DNA from: Hyphococcus sp.
Lineage (GTDB): Bacteria; Pseudomonadota; Alphaproteobacteria; Caulobacterales; Parvularculaceae
Reading direction: 5' to 3'
Assembly: GCA_021776245.1 (NCBI GenBank)
Contig: JAJFGF010000068.1
Location: forward strand, 248,001 to 312,000
Length of the DNA stretch: 64,000 nucleotides
The position numbers were made by a program, and so were the translations under genes. The notes beneath the pieces are model-generated. The model saw nothing but the letters and a program-made list of their open reading frames with translations, did not search any database and was not told the DNA's origin. How positions within the stretch are numbered: position 1 is the stretch's first letter; the number at the start of each line of letters is the position of its first letter. Shown one piece after another: positions 19,751 to 27,076 of this stretch.

Positions 19751-20260
19751 ATGTCCGAGACCCCAGAAAACCCAGCAAATGCCGATGGCGCAGCCGCACC
19801 TGATCCCAATAATGCCCCCTCGATGGCAATTATGGCTCAGTATCTGAAGGATTTATCATTTGAAAATCCGCGCGCGCCAGGGAGTTTTCAGGGCGATGCT
19901 GCGCCGAATATCGATGTGAATGTCGACGTTCAGGCCCGCGGATTAAATCCTGATCAATATGAAGTCGAACTTTCCGTCGCGGCGCGCGCAACGCGTGAAG
20001 GCAATCCGGTGTTTGTTGTCGAAGCAACCTATGCGGGCGCGTTCCAGATCAAAAACCTGCCGCGCGATCAACTCGAAATGGCGATGCTCGTGGAGTGTCC
20101 GCGGCTATTGTTCCCGTTCATGCGCCAAATCATCGCCGACGCTACCCGCAATGGCAACTTTCCGCCGCTGATGCTTGAGCCGATTGATTTCATGGGCATC
20201 TTTGTCGCCAACGCCGACCGCGCGCGGCAAGAGCAACAAGTCGAGCCGGCGCAGGTTTAA
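19751..20260 (+). CDS. secB: Protein-export chaperone SecB
   Basis: 169 residues, standard length. The conserved QYLKDLSFENPRAP start, the IDVNVDVQAR strand and CPRLLFPFMRQIIADATRNG helix are all present. SecB keeps precursor proteins unfolded and hands them to SecA. A short Ala-rich extension precedes the core. The stop overlaps the convergent dnaQ stop by four bases. Confidence 0.97.
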   Translation: MSETPENPANADGAAAPDPNNAPSMAIMAQYLKDLSFENPRAPGSFQGDAAPNIDVNVDVQARGLNPDQYEVELSVAARATREGNPVFVVEATYAGAFQIKNLPRDQLEMAMLVECPRLLFPFMRQIIADATRNGNFPPLMLEPIDFMGIFVANADRARQEQQVEPAQV

Positions 20261-20973
20261 CCGCTCATCCGCCGCCACAGCGCCTCTTCGCCCAACTCGG
20301 CGACAAAGGATTCATGTGCGCTTGCCTCTTCAGCGCTGAGCTTTGAAGGAAGTGCGTGGGGACGTTGTTTAACCGGCGCCTTGACGCTGCGGGACTGGTT
20401 TGGGGCGTCGGCGTTTTTTTCGGCGCGGACAAAATTTAGGCCGGCCTGAGCCCCGCCGGTCAGCTCAATATAAACTTCGGCCAGGAGCCGCGAATCGAGC
20501 AGGGCGCCATGGCCGTCACGTTCACGCTCCCTGGTGTTAATGCCAAACCGTGAGCATAGCGCGTCAAGGCTTGCCGGCGCCCCGGGAAATTTGCGCCGCG
20601 CCAAAAGAAGCGTATCAACAATTTTGTTCCCGAGCGGCGCCAGGTCCGCCGCCTTAAGCTCGGCCTGCAGAAAAGGAAGATCAAAAAAGACGCCATTGTG
20701 GGCAATGAGTTCTGCATCGCCCACAAATGCTGTGAAAGCTGGCGCTGCCGACGGATCGGAAAAGCGCGGCTTGTCTTTAAGAAAGGCGCCTGAAAGACCA
20801 TGCACCCGAAAAGCCCCGTCAGGCATGTCCCTTTCCGGATTTACATAAGAGTGAAAAACCTGTCCGCTGATTGCCCCATTGATCAATTCAACGGCGCCGA
20901 TTTCCACGATGCGATGCCCTTCAGCAAACTTAAATCCGGTTGTCTCTAAATCAAAAACAATTTGCCGCGTCAT
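20257..20973 (-). CDS. dnaQ: DNA polymerase III epsilon subunit (3'-5' exonuclease)
   Basis: 238 residues. DEDDh exonuclease with D8-L-E10 in IVFDLETTGF, a second Asp in AHNGVFFDLPFLQAEL, and the final HGALLDSRLLAEVYIELTGG segment with His and Asp. It proofreads for the replicative polymerase. In related genomes dnaQ usually follows coaE directly; here coaE is 32 kb away at 53.5 kb, so the old cluster has been split between the two genes. Confidence 0.96.
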   Translation of the reverse strand: MTRQIVFDLETTGFKFAEGHRIVEIGAVELINGAISGQVFHSYVNPERDMPDGAFRVHGLSGAFLKDKPRFSDPSAAPAFTAFVGDAELIAHNGVFFDLPFLQAELKAADLAPLGNKIVDTLLLARRKFPGAPASLDALCSRFGINTRERERDGHGALLDSRLLAEVYIELTGGAQAGLNFVRAEKNADAPNQSRSVKAPVKQRPHALPSKLSAEEASAHESFVAELGEEALWRRMSG

Positions 20974-20988
20974 TACGCAATCCCCGCA

Positions 20989-23709
20989 TTAATCCTCTGA
21001 CGGATAAAGCATCTGCTTTACCAGTGTGGCAATCGCCTTCAGCGTAAATGGCTTTTGGATATAACCGGCGCCGTCAATGATATCGAGCTGCTCACGTACC
21101 GCCGCTTCCGCATAGGCCGACATAAACATCACTTTCGCCTTTAACGCCAACTCGTTGCGCGCTTTGTCAATCATCGATGGCCCGTCAAGATCGGGCATCA
21201 TAACGTCGGAAATAACCAGATCAAATCCCGCCTTGTCCTCTTCGAGGATTTCAAGCGCCTCTTCACCGTCAGCAGCCTCAGTCACTTCATAGCCGCAGTC
21301 CGACAGCGTTACGACGACGAAGTTTCGCACTGGATCTTCATCTTCGACGACGAGAATTCGGCCGGCACCCGTCAGGTCCCGCGGCTCGCTTTTCACCGTG
21401 GCCTTAGGCTCGTCAACGGGATCGTCCGCTAAATTATGCGCTGGCAGATAAATTCTAAATGTTGCGCCTTCGCCGATATCGCTTTTTAGAACGACAACAC
21501 CTTCCATTTGGCGAATGACGCCATAGACGGTTGAGAGCCCCAGCCCCGTACCTTTGCCGGTTTCCTTCGTCGTAAAGAACGGATCAAAAATCTTGTCCGC
21601 AATCTCTGACGCAATGCCCGGCCCCGTGTCAGATACTTCGATCAATAAATAGTCCTGCGCGGCAAGGCCGGGCGCATCATGTTCTACAATCTCATTTTCC
21701 GGAACGTATTGCGTTCTAATCGTCAGTACGCCGCCTTCTGGCGCCATCGCGTCACGCGCGTTAACCGCCAGATTCATCAGCGCCGTTTCAAGCTGGTAGC
21801 GATCGACCTTGACCGGCGGCAGAGCTCGTCCATTGACCAATTCGAGTTGCACTTTTTCGCCAATCGCGCGGGTCAAAAACCGCGAGAAATCGCGCAATAT
21901 TTCTGTAATCGAAAGAACTTCGCGCTTAAGCGTCTGCTTGCGCGAAAATGCAAGTAATTGCTTTGTCGTATTTGCGGCGCGCTGTGCGTTTTCGCGAATT
22001 TGAACAAGCTCCTGATACGCAGGATCGCCGGCCGGATGGCGCAGCATCAAACGCTCGCTATGCCCCAGAACAACTTGCAGATAGTTATTGAAATCATGAG
22101 CGACTTTACTCGCCAGCTCGCCAATGCCGCGCAGCTTTTGGTCTTGCGCATAGTCTTCTTCCATGCGCTTTCGATCGGTGACGTCAACAGAATAAAGAAG
22201 CGTGCGGCGAACGCCGTATGATCCGCGCTTGCGCCGAACCGGTCGCGCATAGAGCGCAAAAGTTTGCGCGGCGGCACCTTTGCCAATTGTCACTTCAACA
22301 GGAACGGGCGCTGCGCCTGATTTTGCTTTGCGCTTTACTTCCCCCGCCAATTCTTCAAGCGGTTCCGGCGGCACAGACTTTAGCAGCGGCGCGTTCTTTT
22401 TCGACCCGCCAAATACATCCGTAAACGCCTTATTTGCCTGAACAATGCGGCCGTCGCGATTAATCTCCCCATCAACAATCGCAACGCCAAACGGCGATTC
22501 CGAAATATCTCCCGACAATGTGACCTCTTCGACCTCATCGTCCGCCTCATCAAGCGCCAGCTCGACACAGGCAAAGCCCTCGCCAACACCGCCGCGCCGG
22601 AAGCTCGTGAAAACGCCCTCAATGGGGCTGTCGCCGAGACGGCGTATTTTCGCCGGCTGAGGGCTGCGGTCAATCTGCCAGAGCGCGCGTATAAGCGATC
22701 CGGTTTCCCCAAGGACGACGTCATCGATATGGCAAATGCCGCCGCGCGCCGCGCCCAGCTTTTCGCGCATGGCCGCATTCGCCCAGGGAACTTGCCCCGA
22801 CTTTTCAATCGCAAACACTGCGCGTGGAAAATCTGCATACGCAGCGGCCAACGCGTCATGTTCTTCTTCTTCGATCGGCAGTTCGCGCAAGCGCCAGGCG
22901 ACGTGCTCATCGGCGCCCCTGATCGGGCGTACACTGACTTCAAAACACCGGCGCTCCCCGCCGCCTACGACGCCCATCAGCTGATAAATAACTTCTTCTG
23001 CAACTTCAGCACTTTTAGCAGCGCGGCACAGGCGAAAAACCTTCGTCGCTTCCGCGCCCTGTTGCGCAAACAAGCGGTCAATCCGCGGCGGCAAGCCTGC
23101 GGGACCAATAACGCCCGCCTTCCTCGCAAGATCGAAATAAGCGCGGTTTGCATAAGTCACGACGCCATCGCGCCGCGTTACCAGACGCGCATCGGCATCG
23201 ACGTCGAGGACGCGTTCGGCGAGCCCGAGGGCGCCAAGAATTTCTGCACCCGCCAACTCAGCGGCCTCTGATGCAGGCTTGCCTGCGGCCCGGCGAAGCA
23301 TCGCGCCGGCAAGAAGCACCGGGGAGAACATTTTAAGGGCGGCGCCGCCGAGGAAAATCGCGATCACGAGCGCCAATCCTCCCGCCAGGACGAGGCCTGG
23401 AGCGCCCGAGTCCCGCGCGCTCAAAATCACATAAATAATGGCGCCGATCGCAACGAAAACGCCGGCCCACAAAAGCCAGAAAGACGCAATGTTCCAGACG
23501 CCATCCCTGTCGCCAGCATCGTCGCGAATCTCTGGAATTTCTGCTTCTTCGTCAGCCTCAGCCTGTTTAGCCGCAGCGGCATTCATCAATTCTATTATTT
23601 CTTTGCTGGTTTTTGGGCGCGGCGCCGCGTCGGAACCGTCGGCAATAGCAGCGTCGGCATCTGCAATGGCCGATGTATTCGTCGTGTCAGCTGATTTCGT
23701 GCTCGCCAC
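20989..23709 (-). CDS. cckA: Hybrid histidine kinase, CckA type
   Basis: 906 residues from GTG at 23709, which has GGAG nine bases upstream; a TTG at 23826 only extends the frame. Two membrane helices lie near residues 75-97 and 105-127. PAS-like sensor regions follow (about 190-490), then the dimerisation helix with His538 in KVAHDFNNYLQVVLGH, an ATPase domain (NLAVNARDAM, DTGPGIASEIADKIFDPFFTT, GTGLGLSTVYGV), and a C-terminal receiver (ILVVEDEDPVRNFV, MMPDLDGPSM). The HDFNN form of the H box and the domain order match CckA, which phosphorylates ChpT and thereby CtrA and CpdR. The gene sits directly behind the remains of flhB. Confidence 0.88.
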   Translation of the reverse strand: MASTKSADTTNTSAIADADAAIADGSDAAPRPKTSKEIIELMNAAAAKQAEADEEAEIPEIRDDAGDRDGVWNIASFWLLWAGVFVAIGAIIYVILSARDSGAPGLVLAGGLALVIAIFLGGAALKMFSPVLLAGAMLRRAAGKPASEAAELAGAEILGALGLAERVLDVDADARLVTRRDGVVTYANRAYFDLARKAGVIGPAGLPPRIDRLFAQQGAEATKVFRLCRAAKSAEVAEEVIYQLMGVVGGGERRCFEVSVRPIRGADEHVAWRLRELPIEEEEHDALAAAYADFPRAVFAIEKSGQVPWANAAMREKLGAARGGICHIDDVVLGETGSLIRALWQIDRSPQPAKIRRLGDSPIEGVFTSFRRGGVGEGFACVELALDEADDEVEEVTLSGDISESPFGVAIVDGEINRDGRIVQANKAFTDVFGGSKKNAPLLKSVPPEPLEELAGEVKRKAKSGAAPVPVEVTIGKGAAAQTFALYARPVRRKRGSYGVRRTLLYSVDVTDRKRMEEDYAQDQKLRGIGELASKVAHDFNNYLQVVLGHSERLMLRHPAGDPAYQELVQIRENAQRAANTTKQLLAFSRKQTLKREVLSITEILRDFSRFLTRAIGEKVQLELVNGRALPPVKVDRYQLETALMNLAVNARDAMAPEGGVLTIRTQYVPENEIVEHDAPGLAAQDYLLIEVSDTGPGIASEIADKIFDPFFTTKETGKGTGLGLSTVYGVIRQMEGVVVLKSDIGEGATFRIYLPAHNLADDPVDEPKATVKSEPRDLTGAGRILVVEDEDPVRNFVVVTLSDCGYEVTEAADGEEALEILEEDKAGFDLVISDVMMPDLDGPSMIDKARNELALKAKVMFMSAYAEAAVREQLDIIDGAGYIQKPFTLKAIATLVKQMLYPSED

Positions 23710-23826
23710 GGCGCAGGTCTCCACTCCGGTGATTCGAACTGCGTAATATGGCCCGCTTTGCACCTCCACGCCACCAGCCAAGCAGGGCCGAGCTGGTTGG
23801 TTTTCCCCGAAAAAAGACGTCGGCAA

Positions 23827-23913
23827 TCAATTCAGCGGCCGGGCTGCTTTTGCTTTTCGCATGATGAAGCCAATGATTTTCGCGACCGCCTCATAATGAT
23901 CGATCGGGATAGG
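23827..23913 (-). pseudogene. flhB: Remnant of flhB (last 28 codons)
   Basis: In the frame ending at TGA 23827 the sequence reads PIPIDHYEAVAKIIGF then IMRKAKAARPLN, the typical FlhB C-terminal end (IPxxxYxAVAxIIxxVM). It has no start and directly follows the broken fliR sequence in a different frame. Everything else of flhB is missing, so this is a deletion scar. Confidence 0.85.
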
Positions 23914-24097
23914 TCGGCGCCATAACCGGCGCTAACGCGGCCGTAACAGCTAATGCCGCGACTAATCGTGTGTGCAGTGAAAGCGTAAAGTCGCCAAGCG
24001 CCGGCGCTGTCATAAACATCGCGCCAACGCGGCAAAAAACTGCAAAAATAATGAAAACGTCCAAAGGCAGCGCGGAAAGCGACAGTGACGCGGTCAT
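23891..24097 (-). pseudogene. fliR: Truncated fliR (first 60 or so codons)
   Basis: Starting at ATG 24097, the frame reads a FliR N-terminus (LPLDVFIIFAVFCRVGAMFM, then TAPALGDFTLSLHTRLVAAL, then AVTAALAPVMAP). After MAP the sequence runs into flhB sequence out of frame and stops after 68 codons, where FliR is normally about 250. The start still overlaps the preceding fliQ stop by four bases (ATGA), as in intact operons. Confidence 0.88.
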
Positions 24098-24459
24098 CAG
24101 CCGCCTCCGATCCCGCCGACTGCAATGCGCCCATAGAGCTTTGTCGCGAATTTGCCCAACGCGCCGCCCATAAACGGCAGGCAAATCGCAATCGTGATGA
24201 ACATCACGATGATGCGCGGCACAAAGACAAGAGTTAGCTCCTGCACCTGATTGCCGCCTGAGCGTATGCCCGGAGCCGCCGCGATATGGCGCGGGTCAGC
24301 GATCTGCATTTCCGACGCAGCACTGGCCATGGCCTTGAAATTGGGCGCCTTTACGTCTTGCGCAACATAGTTCGGCGTATCGGCCTTGGCGATATTTCGT
24401 GCGATCACGCTTGTCCTCGCGGCAAGCCCCGTCAGTAACGGGATTTTGCTCAAATCCAT
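24097..24459 (-). pseudogene. In-frame flgB'-'fliQ fusion remnant
   Basis: 120 codons. Residues 1-70 are the N-terminus of the rod protein FlgB (SVIARNIAKADTPNYVAQDV is the conserved NxANxxTPxY region). From about residue 71 the protein is the C-terminal half of FliQ (QVQELTLVFVPRIIVMFITI and the last membrane helix). The rest of flgB, probably flgC and fliE, and the start of fliQ are missing. The chimera remains open, but no flagellar function is plausible. No other flagellar gene is in the window. Confidence 0.9.
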
Positions 24460-24498
24460 GTTAACGCCCTTCCATTGGCCTGTCTTCGCGCCTTATGG

Positions 24499-24513
24499 TT
24501 AAGCGGGCGTTGA
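24499..24513 (-). promoter_or_regulatory. CtrA-like box (7 of 8) upstream of the flgB remnant
   Basis: TTAAGCGGGCGTTGA, TTAA-N7-TTGA, lies 40 bases before the ATG of the flgB'-'fliQ remnant. CtrA controls early flagellar operons in Caulobacter, so this may be a relic promoter. It also lies upstream of the divergent patatin gene. Confidence 0.4.
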
Positions 24514-24563
24514 CATCAACACCCGTTATCTTGGTTAACAAATCCCTACACGGAGCGCCGCAG

Positions 24564-25505
24564 GTGAAAAAAAAGCTAGGTTTGGTTCTGGGATCAGGCG
24601 CCGCGCGCGGCTGGGCGCATATTGGCGTTTTGCGGGGCTTGGCGGAAATTGGCGTTAAGCCGGATATAATTGCCGGATGTTCTGTTGGCGCACTTGTCGG
24701 CGGCGCCCATCTAATTGGGGCGCTCGATGAATTTGAAACCTGGGCGCGCGAGCTGAAGCCATTATCAGCACTTGAAAGCTTCACTTTGAAATTGAGACAT
24801 GGCGGATTTATTGACGCCCGCGGCATTTTCGAAGCATTCGCACAATACGATAAAAATATCGAAGACCTGCCGGTCAAATTCGGTGTCGTCGCCGCGGATC
24901 TCGCCACTGGCGAAGAAGTGGAAATAACAAGCGGCTCTGTAATCAGCGCTGTACGCGCATCAAGCGCGATTCCGGTTATATTCCAGGCAGTCAAAAGAAA
25001 CGGAAGCTGGCTCGTTGACGGCGCGCTCGCCAATCCTGCGCCCGTCTCGCTGGCGCGCAAGCTGGGCGCCGAGATCGTCATCGCTGTCGATCTGAACGCC
25101 GTGCCGCGGGTCCTTGCCAGGTTTGACGCGCCGCCGCCAACGGTTCCGGCGGTCATCTCCGCGGACCAGCGCCCGGCGCCAGGCATTACCGGGGCGGTCG
25201 CCAAATTGATCGAAGACACGCAAGCCGCTGTGTTACGGCAAATAGATTTCGCCAAAGCGCGCACGCACGCCTCGCCGCACCTATTTGAAACCGCTTATGC
25301 CGCCGCAGACATCTTTCAGATGCACCTCGCGCGGTCGCGCGCTGAAAACTGCCCGCCAGATATTCTCTTGCGGCCGGACATGCGCGACGCAATGCCGACG
25401 GCCTTTGACCGGGCCGACGAGTTTATTGAAGAGGGTCGCCAGACCCTACTGGCGCAACGCGGACAAATTGAGAACCTTCTTGGGTCATCAGAAAGGGTTG
25501 GTTAA
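24564..25505 (+). CDS. Patatin-like phospholipase family protein (RssA-like)
   Basis: 313 residues from GTG at 24564 (GGAG eight bases upstream); an ATG at 24495 would add 23 residues that homologues usually lack. The Ser-Asp dyad is visible: oxyanion loop LGSGAARGWAHIGVL, nucleophile Ser40 in GCSVGAL, and Asp152 in VDGALANP. Probably cytoplasmic or peripheral acyl hydrolase. The substrate is unknown. It is transcribed away from the flagellar scar and is followed after one base by a DUF302 lipoprotein gene. Confidence 0.9.
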   Translation: MKKKLGLVLGSGAARGWAHIGVLRGLAEIGVKPDIIAGCSVGALVGGAHLIGALDEFETWARELKPLSALESFTLKLRHGGFIDARGIFEAFAQYDKNIEDLPVKFGVVAADLATGEEVEITSGSVISAVRASSAIPVIFQAVKRNGSWLVDGALANPAPVSLARKLGAEIVIAVDLNAVPRVLARFDAPPPTVPAVISADQRPAPGITGAVAKLIEDTQAAVLRQIDFAKARTHASPHLFETAYAAADIFQMHLARSRAENCPPDILLRPDMRDAMPTAFDRADEFIEEGRQTLLAQRGQIENLLGSSERVG

Positions 25506-26022: not shown

Positions 26023-26370
26023 CTATAATATATCCAGAACCGCTTCCGGCGGGCGGCCAATAGCCGCCTTTGCGCCGCTCACAACGATCGGCCGTTCCAT
26101 CAGGATCGGATTTTCGACCATGGCCTGGATTAACGCCGCATCTGTTTTTGCGGCTTCGCTGAGGTTAAGATCCTTATACGGCGCTTCTCCCTTGCGCATG
26201 ATTTCGCGTGGGGATTTTTCGAGTTTTTCCAGCACTGCCTTTATCTCATCTGCTGAAAGCGGTGTTTCCAAATAGTGAACAATTTCCAGCTCGACGCTGC
26301 GCTCTTCCAGAAGCGCGAGCGTCTGTCGCGATTTCGAGCATCGTGGATTGTGATAGATAGTGACCGTCAT
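26023..26370 (-). CDS. arsC: Arsenate reductase (ArsC/Spx-like thioredoxin fold)
   Basis: 115 residues. Catalytic Cys11 in YHNPRCSKSRQTL, followed by the conserved LILMERPIVV-type segment (NPILMERPIVV) that contains the arsenate-binding Arg. This is the glutaredoxin-dependent ArsC family. No arsR or arsenite pump is adjacent, so a role in arsenic resistance is unproven; some ArsC-like proteins have other functions. Confidence 0.85.
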   Translation of the reverse strand: MTVTIYHNPRCSKSRQTLALLEERSVELEIVHYLETPLSADEIKAVLEKLEKSPREIMRKGEAPYKDLNLSEAAKTDAALIQAMVENPILMERPIVVSGAKAAIGRPPEAVLDIL

Positions 26371-26386
26371 AAAGCGTTCCTGAAAA

Positions 26387-27076
26387 TCAAAGCGAAAGCC
26401 TATACCCGCCGCTCTCGGTCAACAATATCGATGCGCTCGAAGGGTCAGGTTCAATTTTCTGCCGCAGGCGGTAGACATGGGTTTCGAGCGTATGCGTTGT
26501 AACACCGGAATTATATCCCCAAACCTCGTCTAGCAATATATCGCGCGTAACCGGCTTACCGCCTGCGCGATAAAGAAATTTAAGGATCGATGTTTCTTTT
26601 TCTGTAAGGCGGATCTTTTTGTCTTCCTGAGTCACGAGCATTTTCACGGCCGGCCTGAATTCATAGGGTCCAACCTTGAACACTGCGTCTTCGCTTTGTT
26701 CGTGACTTCTTAAATGTGCACGCACGCGGGCAAGCAAAACACCGAACTTAAATGGCTTTGAGACATAATCATTTGCGCCAGCATCGAGCCCCAGGATTGT
26801 GTCCGCCTCGCTATCGGCGCCGGTCAACATGATGATTGGCGACTTAAAACCGTTCTTGCGCATAATGCGGCAGGCTTCGCGGCCATCCATATCCGGAAGC
26901 CCCACATCCAGCAGCATCAGGTCGATATGCGCTTCTTCCTTGACGCGTTCAATTGCGGCATTTGCTGTCTCAATAGGCTCAACGGAGAGCTCGTCATGAA
27001 CGTTAAACTGTTCAACCAGCGTCTCTCGCAGCAATTCATCGTCATCAACCAGAATAATCTTTTTCGCCCGCGTCAT
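26387..27076 (-). CDS. OmpR/PhoB-family response regulator
   Basis: 229 residues. Receiver domain with acidic pocket DDD at 11-13, phospho-acceptor Asp57 in LMLLDVGLPDMDG and Lys in VSKPFKFG; winged-helix DNA-binding domain from about 130 (RLTEKETSILKFLYRAGGK, THTLETHVYRLRQKI). It is not CtrA, whose N-terminus differs. It resembles the CenR-type regulators of alphaproteobacteria, but I cannot be sure of the orthology. No partner kinase is adjacent. The 203-base gap upstream, 27077-27279, holds no gene I can support. Confidence 0.92.
   Translation of the reverse strand: MTRAKKIILVDDDELLRETLVEQFNVHDELSVEPIETANAAIERVKEEAHIDLMLLDVGLPDMDGREACRIMRKNGFKSPIIMLTGADSEADTILGLDAGANDYVSKPFKFGVLLARVRAHLRSHEQSEDAVFKVGPYEFRPAVKMLVTQEDKKIRLTEKETSILKFLYRAGGKPVTRDILLDEVWGYNSGVTTHTLETHVYRLRQKIEPDPSSASILLTESGGYRLSL

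Follow-up and report, generated by a model that had tools for sequence, protein, structure and literature searches.

Flagellar gene remnants next to cckA

The window, a stretch of 64,000 nucleotides from a Hyphococcus genome (G000), carries on its minus strand four fragments of flagellar genes followed by an intact cckA. P is used here for the cckA-linked flagellar system, S for a second cluster on contig C24 and G021 for a sister genome of the same genus. The names yggS-, rssA-, response-regulator-, arsC- and dnaQ-like are putative assignments.

20257..20973, minus strand: dnaQ-like exonuclease gene, right border (open reading frame, synteny)
20989..23709, minus strand: cckA, intact (mechanical open reading frame 20989-23826; probable start GTG 23709)
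23730..23775, minus strand: putative cckA promoter (GGTGGC 23775-23770; CATATT 23750-23745; GTTCGAATCA with a GANTC site at 23739-23730)
23827..23904, minus strand: flhB relic, last ~26 codons including the stop (alignment to G021 FlhB)
23891..24097, minus strand: fliR relic, first ~65 residues followed by an out-of-frame stretch up to a stop (FliR NF009416, 5.2e-9)
24097..24249, minus strand: fliQ relic, last 50 residues, joined in frame to flgB (FliQ NF004671, 1.5e-13)
24253..24459, minus strand: flgB relic, N-terminus with two small in-frame internal deletions (NCBIfam FlgB, 3.7e-8; tblastn to G021 FlgB)
24495..25505, plus strand: rssA-like patatin gene, left border of the P locus (open reading frame, synteny)
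26023..27076, minus strand: arsC-like and response regulator genes, syntenic left flank (open reading frames, identity to G021)

A search against NCBIfam profiles found the 120-residue open reading frame at 24459-24097 (minus strand) to be FlgB-like at its start (best models 3.5e-8 and 3.7e-8, about residues 12-69) and FliQ-like at its end (1.5e-13, residues 71-114), while the frame running from 24097 on the same strand matched FliR at 5.2e-9; all of these matches fall under the curated full-length cut-offs, as is expected for fragments. No NCBIfam match was obtained for the FlhB tail, its length being insufficient for such models; it is recognised by alignment to G021. Against the G021 proteins the FlgB relic gave 65% over residues 1-77, with gaps (tblastn), the FliQ relic 94% amino-acid identity to residues 44-93, the FliR relic 91% to residues 1-65 and the FlhB tail 92% to residues 333-358 of 359. 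With these E-values for FliQ, FlgB and FliR, and with the pieces of FliQ, FliR and FlhB all 91-94% identical to a single intact locus, the matches are not a matter of chance.

The best matches of the cckA product are two NCBIfam CckA models, at 529 and 497 bits and under the cut-off of 1000. As its start, the TTG at 23826 that opens the mechanical reading frame is less likely than the GTG at 23709. Directly upstream of the gene the columns GT.G, CATA.T and CGAATCA are held by at least 85% of the 26 genus rows aligned, the GANTC site falling within CGAATCA just downstream of the putative -10. This motif looks like cckA's own promoter; it lies downstream of the FlhB tail and is common to genomes with and without P, which argues that the scar would not be required for cckA transcription. 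The idea that the scar has been kept because the flgB promoter drives cckA was dropped in view of this separate conserved motif. CcrM and GcrA have roles at GANTC sites, and the site at 23739-23730 points to possible control by them. CckA itself is described as essential in Caulobacter and its relatives (PMC12421884).

The intact counterpart in a sister genome

G021 is the nearest genome by CckA (86%), and at the matching place it has the order flgB-flgC-fliE-fliQ-fliR-flhB-cckA with all genes intact, which is presumably also the order beside cckA in Caulobacter itself. The two genomes share yggS-, response-regulator- and arsC-like genes on the left flank and the dnaQ-like gene on the right, identity on the left being 99% for the response regulator and 76% for the arsC-like gene. 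The rssA-like gene to the left of flgB has met opposite fates at this one border, being fragmented in G021 (L068:7827-8094) and intact in the window.

Relative to G021 the scar contains four deletions. One of 21 bp lies in frame within flgB and removes an LDFLASR-type segment that is present in all seven FlgB sequences among those listed (nine loci being given), that of G021 among them; a further in-frame loss of ~45 bp in flgB precedes GNQV. The other two are the flgB-fliQ junction, joined at a CAGGT that occurs in both G021 genes, and the fliR-flhB junction, which is out of frame. The initial annotation had drawn the same outline, and its four pieces, with the in-frame flgB-fliQ fusion, lie where it put them on the minus strand between 24459 and 23827 and align to flagellar proteins, just as the adjoining cckA is intact and the order flgBC-fliE-fliQR-flhB-cckA that it predicted is the one seen in G021. 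Its presumption that flgC and fliE had gone from between flgB and fliQ agrees with the position of both genes in G021, but its two deletions have become four. It was right that the end of flhB is present and that the fliQ-fliR overlap survives, as it does in G021; the flhB remnant amounts to about 26 codons with the stop instead of 28, and the overlap reads TGATG(A), not ATGA.

Dispersed remnants of the same system

The scar is not the only one of its kind, and P has been gutted at four loci in G000, on contigs C65, C24, C49 and C13. The three others are:

C24:143248-146292: FlgL tail, FlgE tail, intact SciP, FliF-FliN fusion, FlbD-like piece and FlhA tail, then intact FlhF
C49:44797-45036: FlgH tail; flgA, flgG, flgF, fliL and fliM gone
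C13:18667-19125: start of a flagellin, running in frame into a FlaG-like piece (the latter named by eye)

Their counterparts in G021, where the P genes are named by eye except where a family match is cited, are:

C10:336106-350477: flhF, flhA, flbD-like, fliN, fliH, fliG, fliF, sciP, flgE, flgD, fliK, flgK, flgL
C10:178752-189030: flgH, flgA, flgG, flgF, fliL, fliM, orf641, tipF-like
C10:730291-732783: flbT, flaF, flagellin, FlaG-like

In the C24 locus the FliF N-terminus, identified by alignment to G021, is in frame with the FliN C-terminus, the FlbD-like piece is spread over three frames, and the FlhA tail is 92% identical to the P FlhA of G021; the C49 locus also retains a tail of orf641, and the FlaG-like piece on C13 has an internal stop. 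By their coordinates the eight larger deletions have together removed about 20.5 kb of what G021 has, fliM included. P is intact in G021 at the loci compared, whereas the P genes found in G000 are gene ends joined across deletions. Kept as open frames are CckA, SciP (a CtrA inhibitor, 2.5e-41 in NCBIfam and above the cut-off), FlhF and a tipF-like gene. The last two mean that sparing is not confined to genes known to be essential. The tipF-like EAL gene (C49:45447-47543, L288) has 62% identity to that of G021 with 37 gap columns, and may be decaying.

A second flagellar cluster

When the assembly was searched for the FliQ family, a second, full-length FliQ turned up on C24. The cluster in which it lies, S, occupies about 87 to 120 kb of that contig and comprises motB, flgE, flgK, flgL, flgI, fliG, fliP, fliN, fliH, fliF, motA, flgF, flgG, flgA, flgH, flgD and flagellin, together with flaF, flbT, fliI, flgB, flgC, fliE, fliQ, flhA, fliR and flhB (motA and flgA named by eye, the others by family matches). 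Its genes, from rod, ring and hook to gate, ATPase, motor and flagellin, are open frames of ordinary length; FliR, FlhB, FlgL and FliH score under the full-length NCBIfam cut-offs, FliH and FlgL matching weakly. The initial annotation had concluded that a whole export gate was lost from the genome, and had named a full flagellar cluster elsewhere in the genome as the finding that would refute it; the search of the assembly turned up a second cluster with a gate of its own, and the conclusion falls. On the gene content of the assembly, the scar is the remnant of one of two flagellar systems. FliP is represented once in G000, by the S copy, and twice in G021.

The layout of S agrees with the fla1 type as described for Rhodobacterales (PMC11974857): the motB-flgEKLI and fliFHNP blocks run in inverse orientation to each other, and after flaF-flbT comes a DUF1217 (CP1) gene, the product of which is 39% identical to the DUF1217 protein beside flbT on a C. 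sphaeroides plasmid. It differs in that S occurs in Parvularculaceae and has its gate genes arranged otherwise. In that account the proteins CP1-CP4 are reported from fla1 clusters, with none given outside Rhodobacterales (PMC11974857). Genes at the CP1-CP4 positions are present in S (C24:98711-103173 and 112118-112960; L004, L005), homology being supported for CP1 and CP2-CP4 being assigned by position only.

A FliM-family search gave one match each in G021, G020 and G012 and none in G000 or in G009 and G022, two genomes that lack P and have S only. The lack of a match in these three suggests that the S motor may work without a canonical FliM.

Distribution of the two systems

Among the 28 genomes of the genus P stands beside cckA in 11, is absent there from 14 and is a relic in one, G000; the other two could not be assessed, G005 having no cckA match and the contig of G026 ending in cckA. 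The 11 include G001, where P is cut by a contig end, and G013, where it is rearranged with flgB elsewhere on the contig. Every one of the 14 P-less genomes carries at least one other full-length FliQ, and a second FliQ is present in eight of the 11 with P, a single FliQ match being found in G012, G018 (76% complete) and G020. Elsewhere in the family eight further genomes were compared: two have P next to cckA, five lack it there, and G034 gave no CckA match; the order fliQ-fliR-flhB-cckA recurs in G032 and G035. Not every loss of P has been a clean deletion, since in the P-less G002, G011 and G024 rssA and cckA are separated by 0.8-2.7 kb of unrelated sequence.

Placed on a CckA tree the pattern of P calls for seven changes over 34 rows. 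As read from that tree, and with losses alone counted, P would have been lost six times within the genus, and five to six is the safer figure because some of the separating branches have support near 80 or below. In an FlhA tree the P proteins of G021, G020 and G008 group with other families of the order and apart from S, which forms two clades within the genus. That tree holds 48 of 53 extracted rows, five near-copies having been dropped; it is made up without Rhodobacterales FlhA, the G000 FlhA tail, the P FlhA of G012, G013, G014, G016, G018 and G023, and the FlhA of G011 and G048. A third flagellar type, distinct in the same tree from both P and S, occurs at G002:C4:118808-121128 and on G028:C2 (L105, L132).

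Age and mechanism of the loss

The age of the loss was approached by counting amino-acid-changing and silent differences in relic codons, using single-base codon differences that could be placed by outgroups. On the G000 branch the relics had a ratio of 28:114, on the G021 branch one of 19:131 (Fisher p=0.11); for the kept genes cckA, flhF and sciP the two branches gave 22:126 and 20:170 (p=0.25), and relics and kept genes compared on the G000 branch gave p=0.28. In this weakly powered test there was no significant excess of amino-acid changes of the kind that relaxed selection would leave in the 11 of 14 relic genes counted (FlgL, orf641 and FliF gave no counts, outgroup or mapped codons being missing), so the loss of P looks recent. 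If the neutral ratio of amino-acid-changing to silent differences is taken to be near 2.7, it can be roughly estimated that only a few percent of the G000 branch passed without selection; deletions would then have outrun point mutations.

The ends of the deletions were compared by scoring the likeness of the two G021 flanks at each junction against random positions. Over six of the nine junctions the scores added up to 29, where the controls averaged 12.7 (p=0.005), with single-junction values of 0.017 (J0), 0.032 (J1), 0.020 (J2), 0.12 (L2B), 0.23 (L2C) and 0.017 (L4), of which L2B and L2C are not significant alone. The registers come from anchor strings that we set after the alignments had been viewed, four of the six being chosen or shifted by hand, and for that reason the presence of short imperfect repeats at the deletion ends is suggestive only. 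Alignment gave no clear repeat at L2A, L3A and L3B, which were left out of the sum; the nine junctions exclude the ~45-bp flgB loss and those inside the FlbD-like and tipF-like genes. No insertion sequence was seen by eye in the junction stretches inspected.

Interpretation

It is very probable that a redundant, ancestral and dispersed flagellum of the Caulobacterales type, P, is being dismantled by deletion in this lineage, having left relics at four sites or more, of which the scar is one. The presence of S would have made P redundant and so relaxed selection on it, after which internal deletions, several of them perhaps at short imperfect repeats, would have removed it piecemeal. Deletions reaching into presumably essential neighbours, that is cckA with its own promoter and probably sciP, would not have been tolerated, which would explain why scars are bounded by those genes. 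The fused flgB-fliQ frame is most likely a by-product without function.

One alternative, that the lineage has lost its flagella altogether, is suggested by the absence or truncation of those P genes that were searched for, but it is highly improbable and is rejected at the level of genes by the C24 cluster, where the genes for rod, ring, hook and gate, as well as those for ATPase, motor and flagellin, are open frames. It could also be argued that the in-frame flgB-fliQ, fliF-fliN and flagellin-FlaG-like fusions have been kept as functional small proteins, given that the frame is preserved across the three sense-sense junctions and through the two small deletions within flgB, and that the FlgB-FliQ frame is open. 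This we think very unlikely: the fliR-flhB junction is out of frame, the FlbD-like piece runs through three frames and the FlaG-like piece contains a stop, whilst none of the 59 other genomes searched gave a single match spanning the FlgB-FliQ fusion. The low level of amino-acid change in the relics is explained by recent loss, since relics and kept genes behave alike. Least probable of all is an artefact of assembly or binning, for which the division into 76 contigs and the restriction of the scar to G000 among the genomes compared might be cited; the relic loci lie on four separate contigs, flanking and relic DNA on both sides of the joins is mostly 70-86% identical to the matching DNA of G021, and the assembly has a completeness of 100 and a contamination of 0.05.

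Beyond the dismantling of P in the window genome, a wider and tentative reading can be offered, which we find quite possible without quite leaning towards it: the ancestral CckA-linked flagellum may have been lost about six times in one genus, each time where another set was already resident; the CckA-SciP-CtrA circuit, which used to lie among the old genes, would now control the other flagellum, and the window genome would have been caught shortly after such a displacement. Several stages seem to coexist in the genus: ancestral system alone, to judge by the single FliQ match in three of the 11 P genomes, two systems, relic with second system, and second system alone. This makes it directly testable how one flagellum displaces another and what becomes of master regulators whose host operons are lost. 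For annotation, a scar of flagellar genes beside cckA need not mean an immotile organism. Among the papers listed none stood out as describing two flagellar systems in Parvularculaceae, which is not proof of absence; what this case adds is a dispersed ancestral flagellum that is being lost piece by piece while another is resident, with several of the stages represented in one genus.

Relation to known cases of flagellar loss

The closest precedent by analogy appears to be fhiA and mbhA of E. coli K-12, which are described as remnants of a lost second flagellum, Flag-2, in both K-12 and B (PMC3032704). There too a redundant system has been left as terminal gene fragments whilst another flagellar system remains (PMC3032704, PMC6993521). 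For Enterobacterales, lfhA/lafU fragments are recorded in 531 of 4028 strains, with direct repeats reported where the deletions end (PMC6993521). Flag-2 is portrayed as a secondary system at one locus, lost en bloc (PMC3032704, PMC6993521), whereas P groups with other families of its order, is dispersed, and has been eroded at no fewer than four loci by separate deletions that left cell-cycle regulators in place. Within Caulobacteraceae, Acaudatibacter and Phenylobacterium immobile are likewise on record as having convergently lost flagellar genes of the Caulobacter type; these are described as wholly lacking flagellar genes and many developmental regulators (PMC12700997), whereas G000 keeps another flagellar set.
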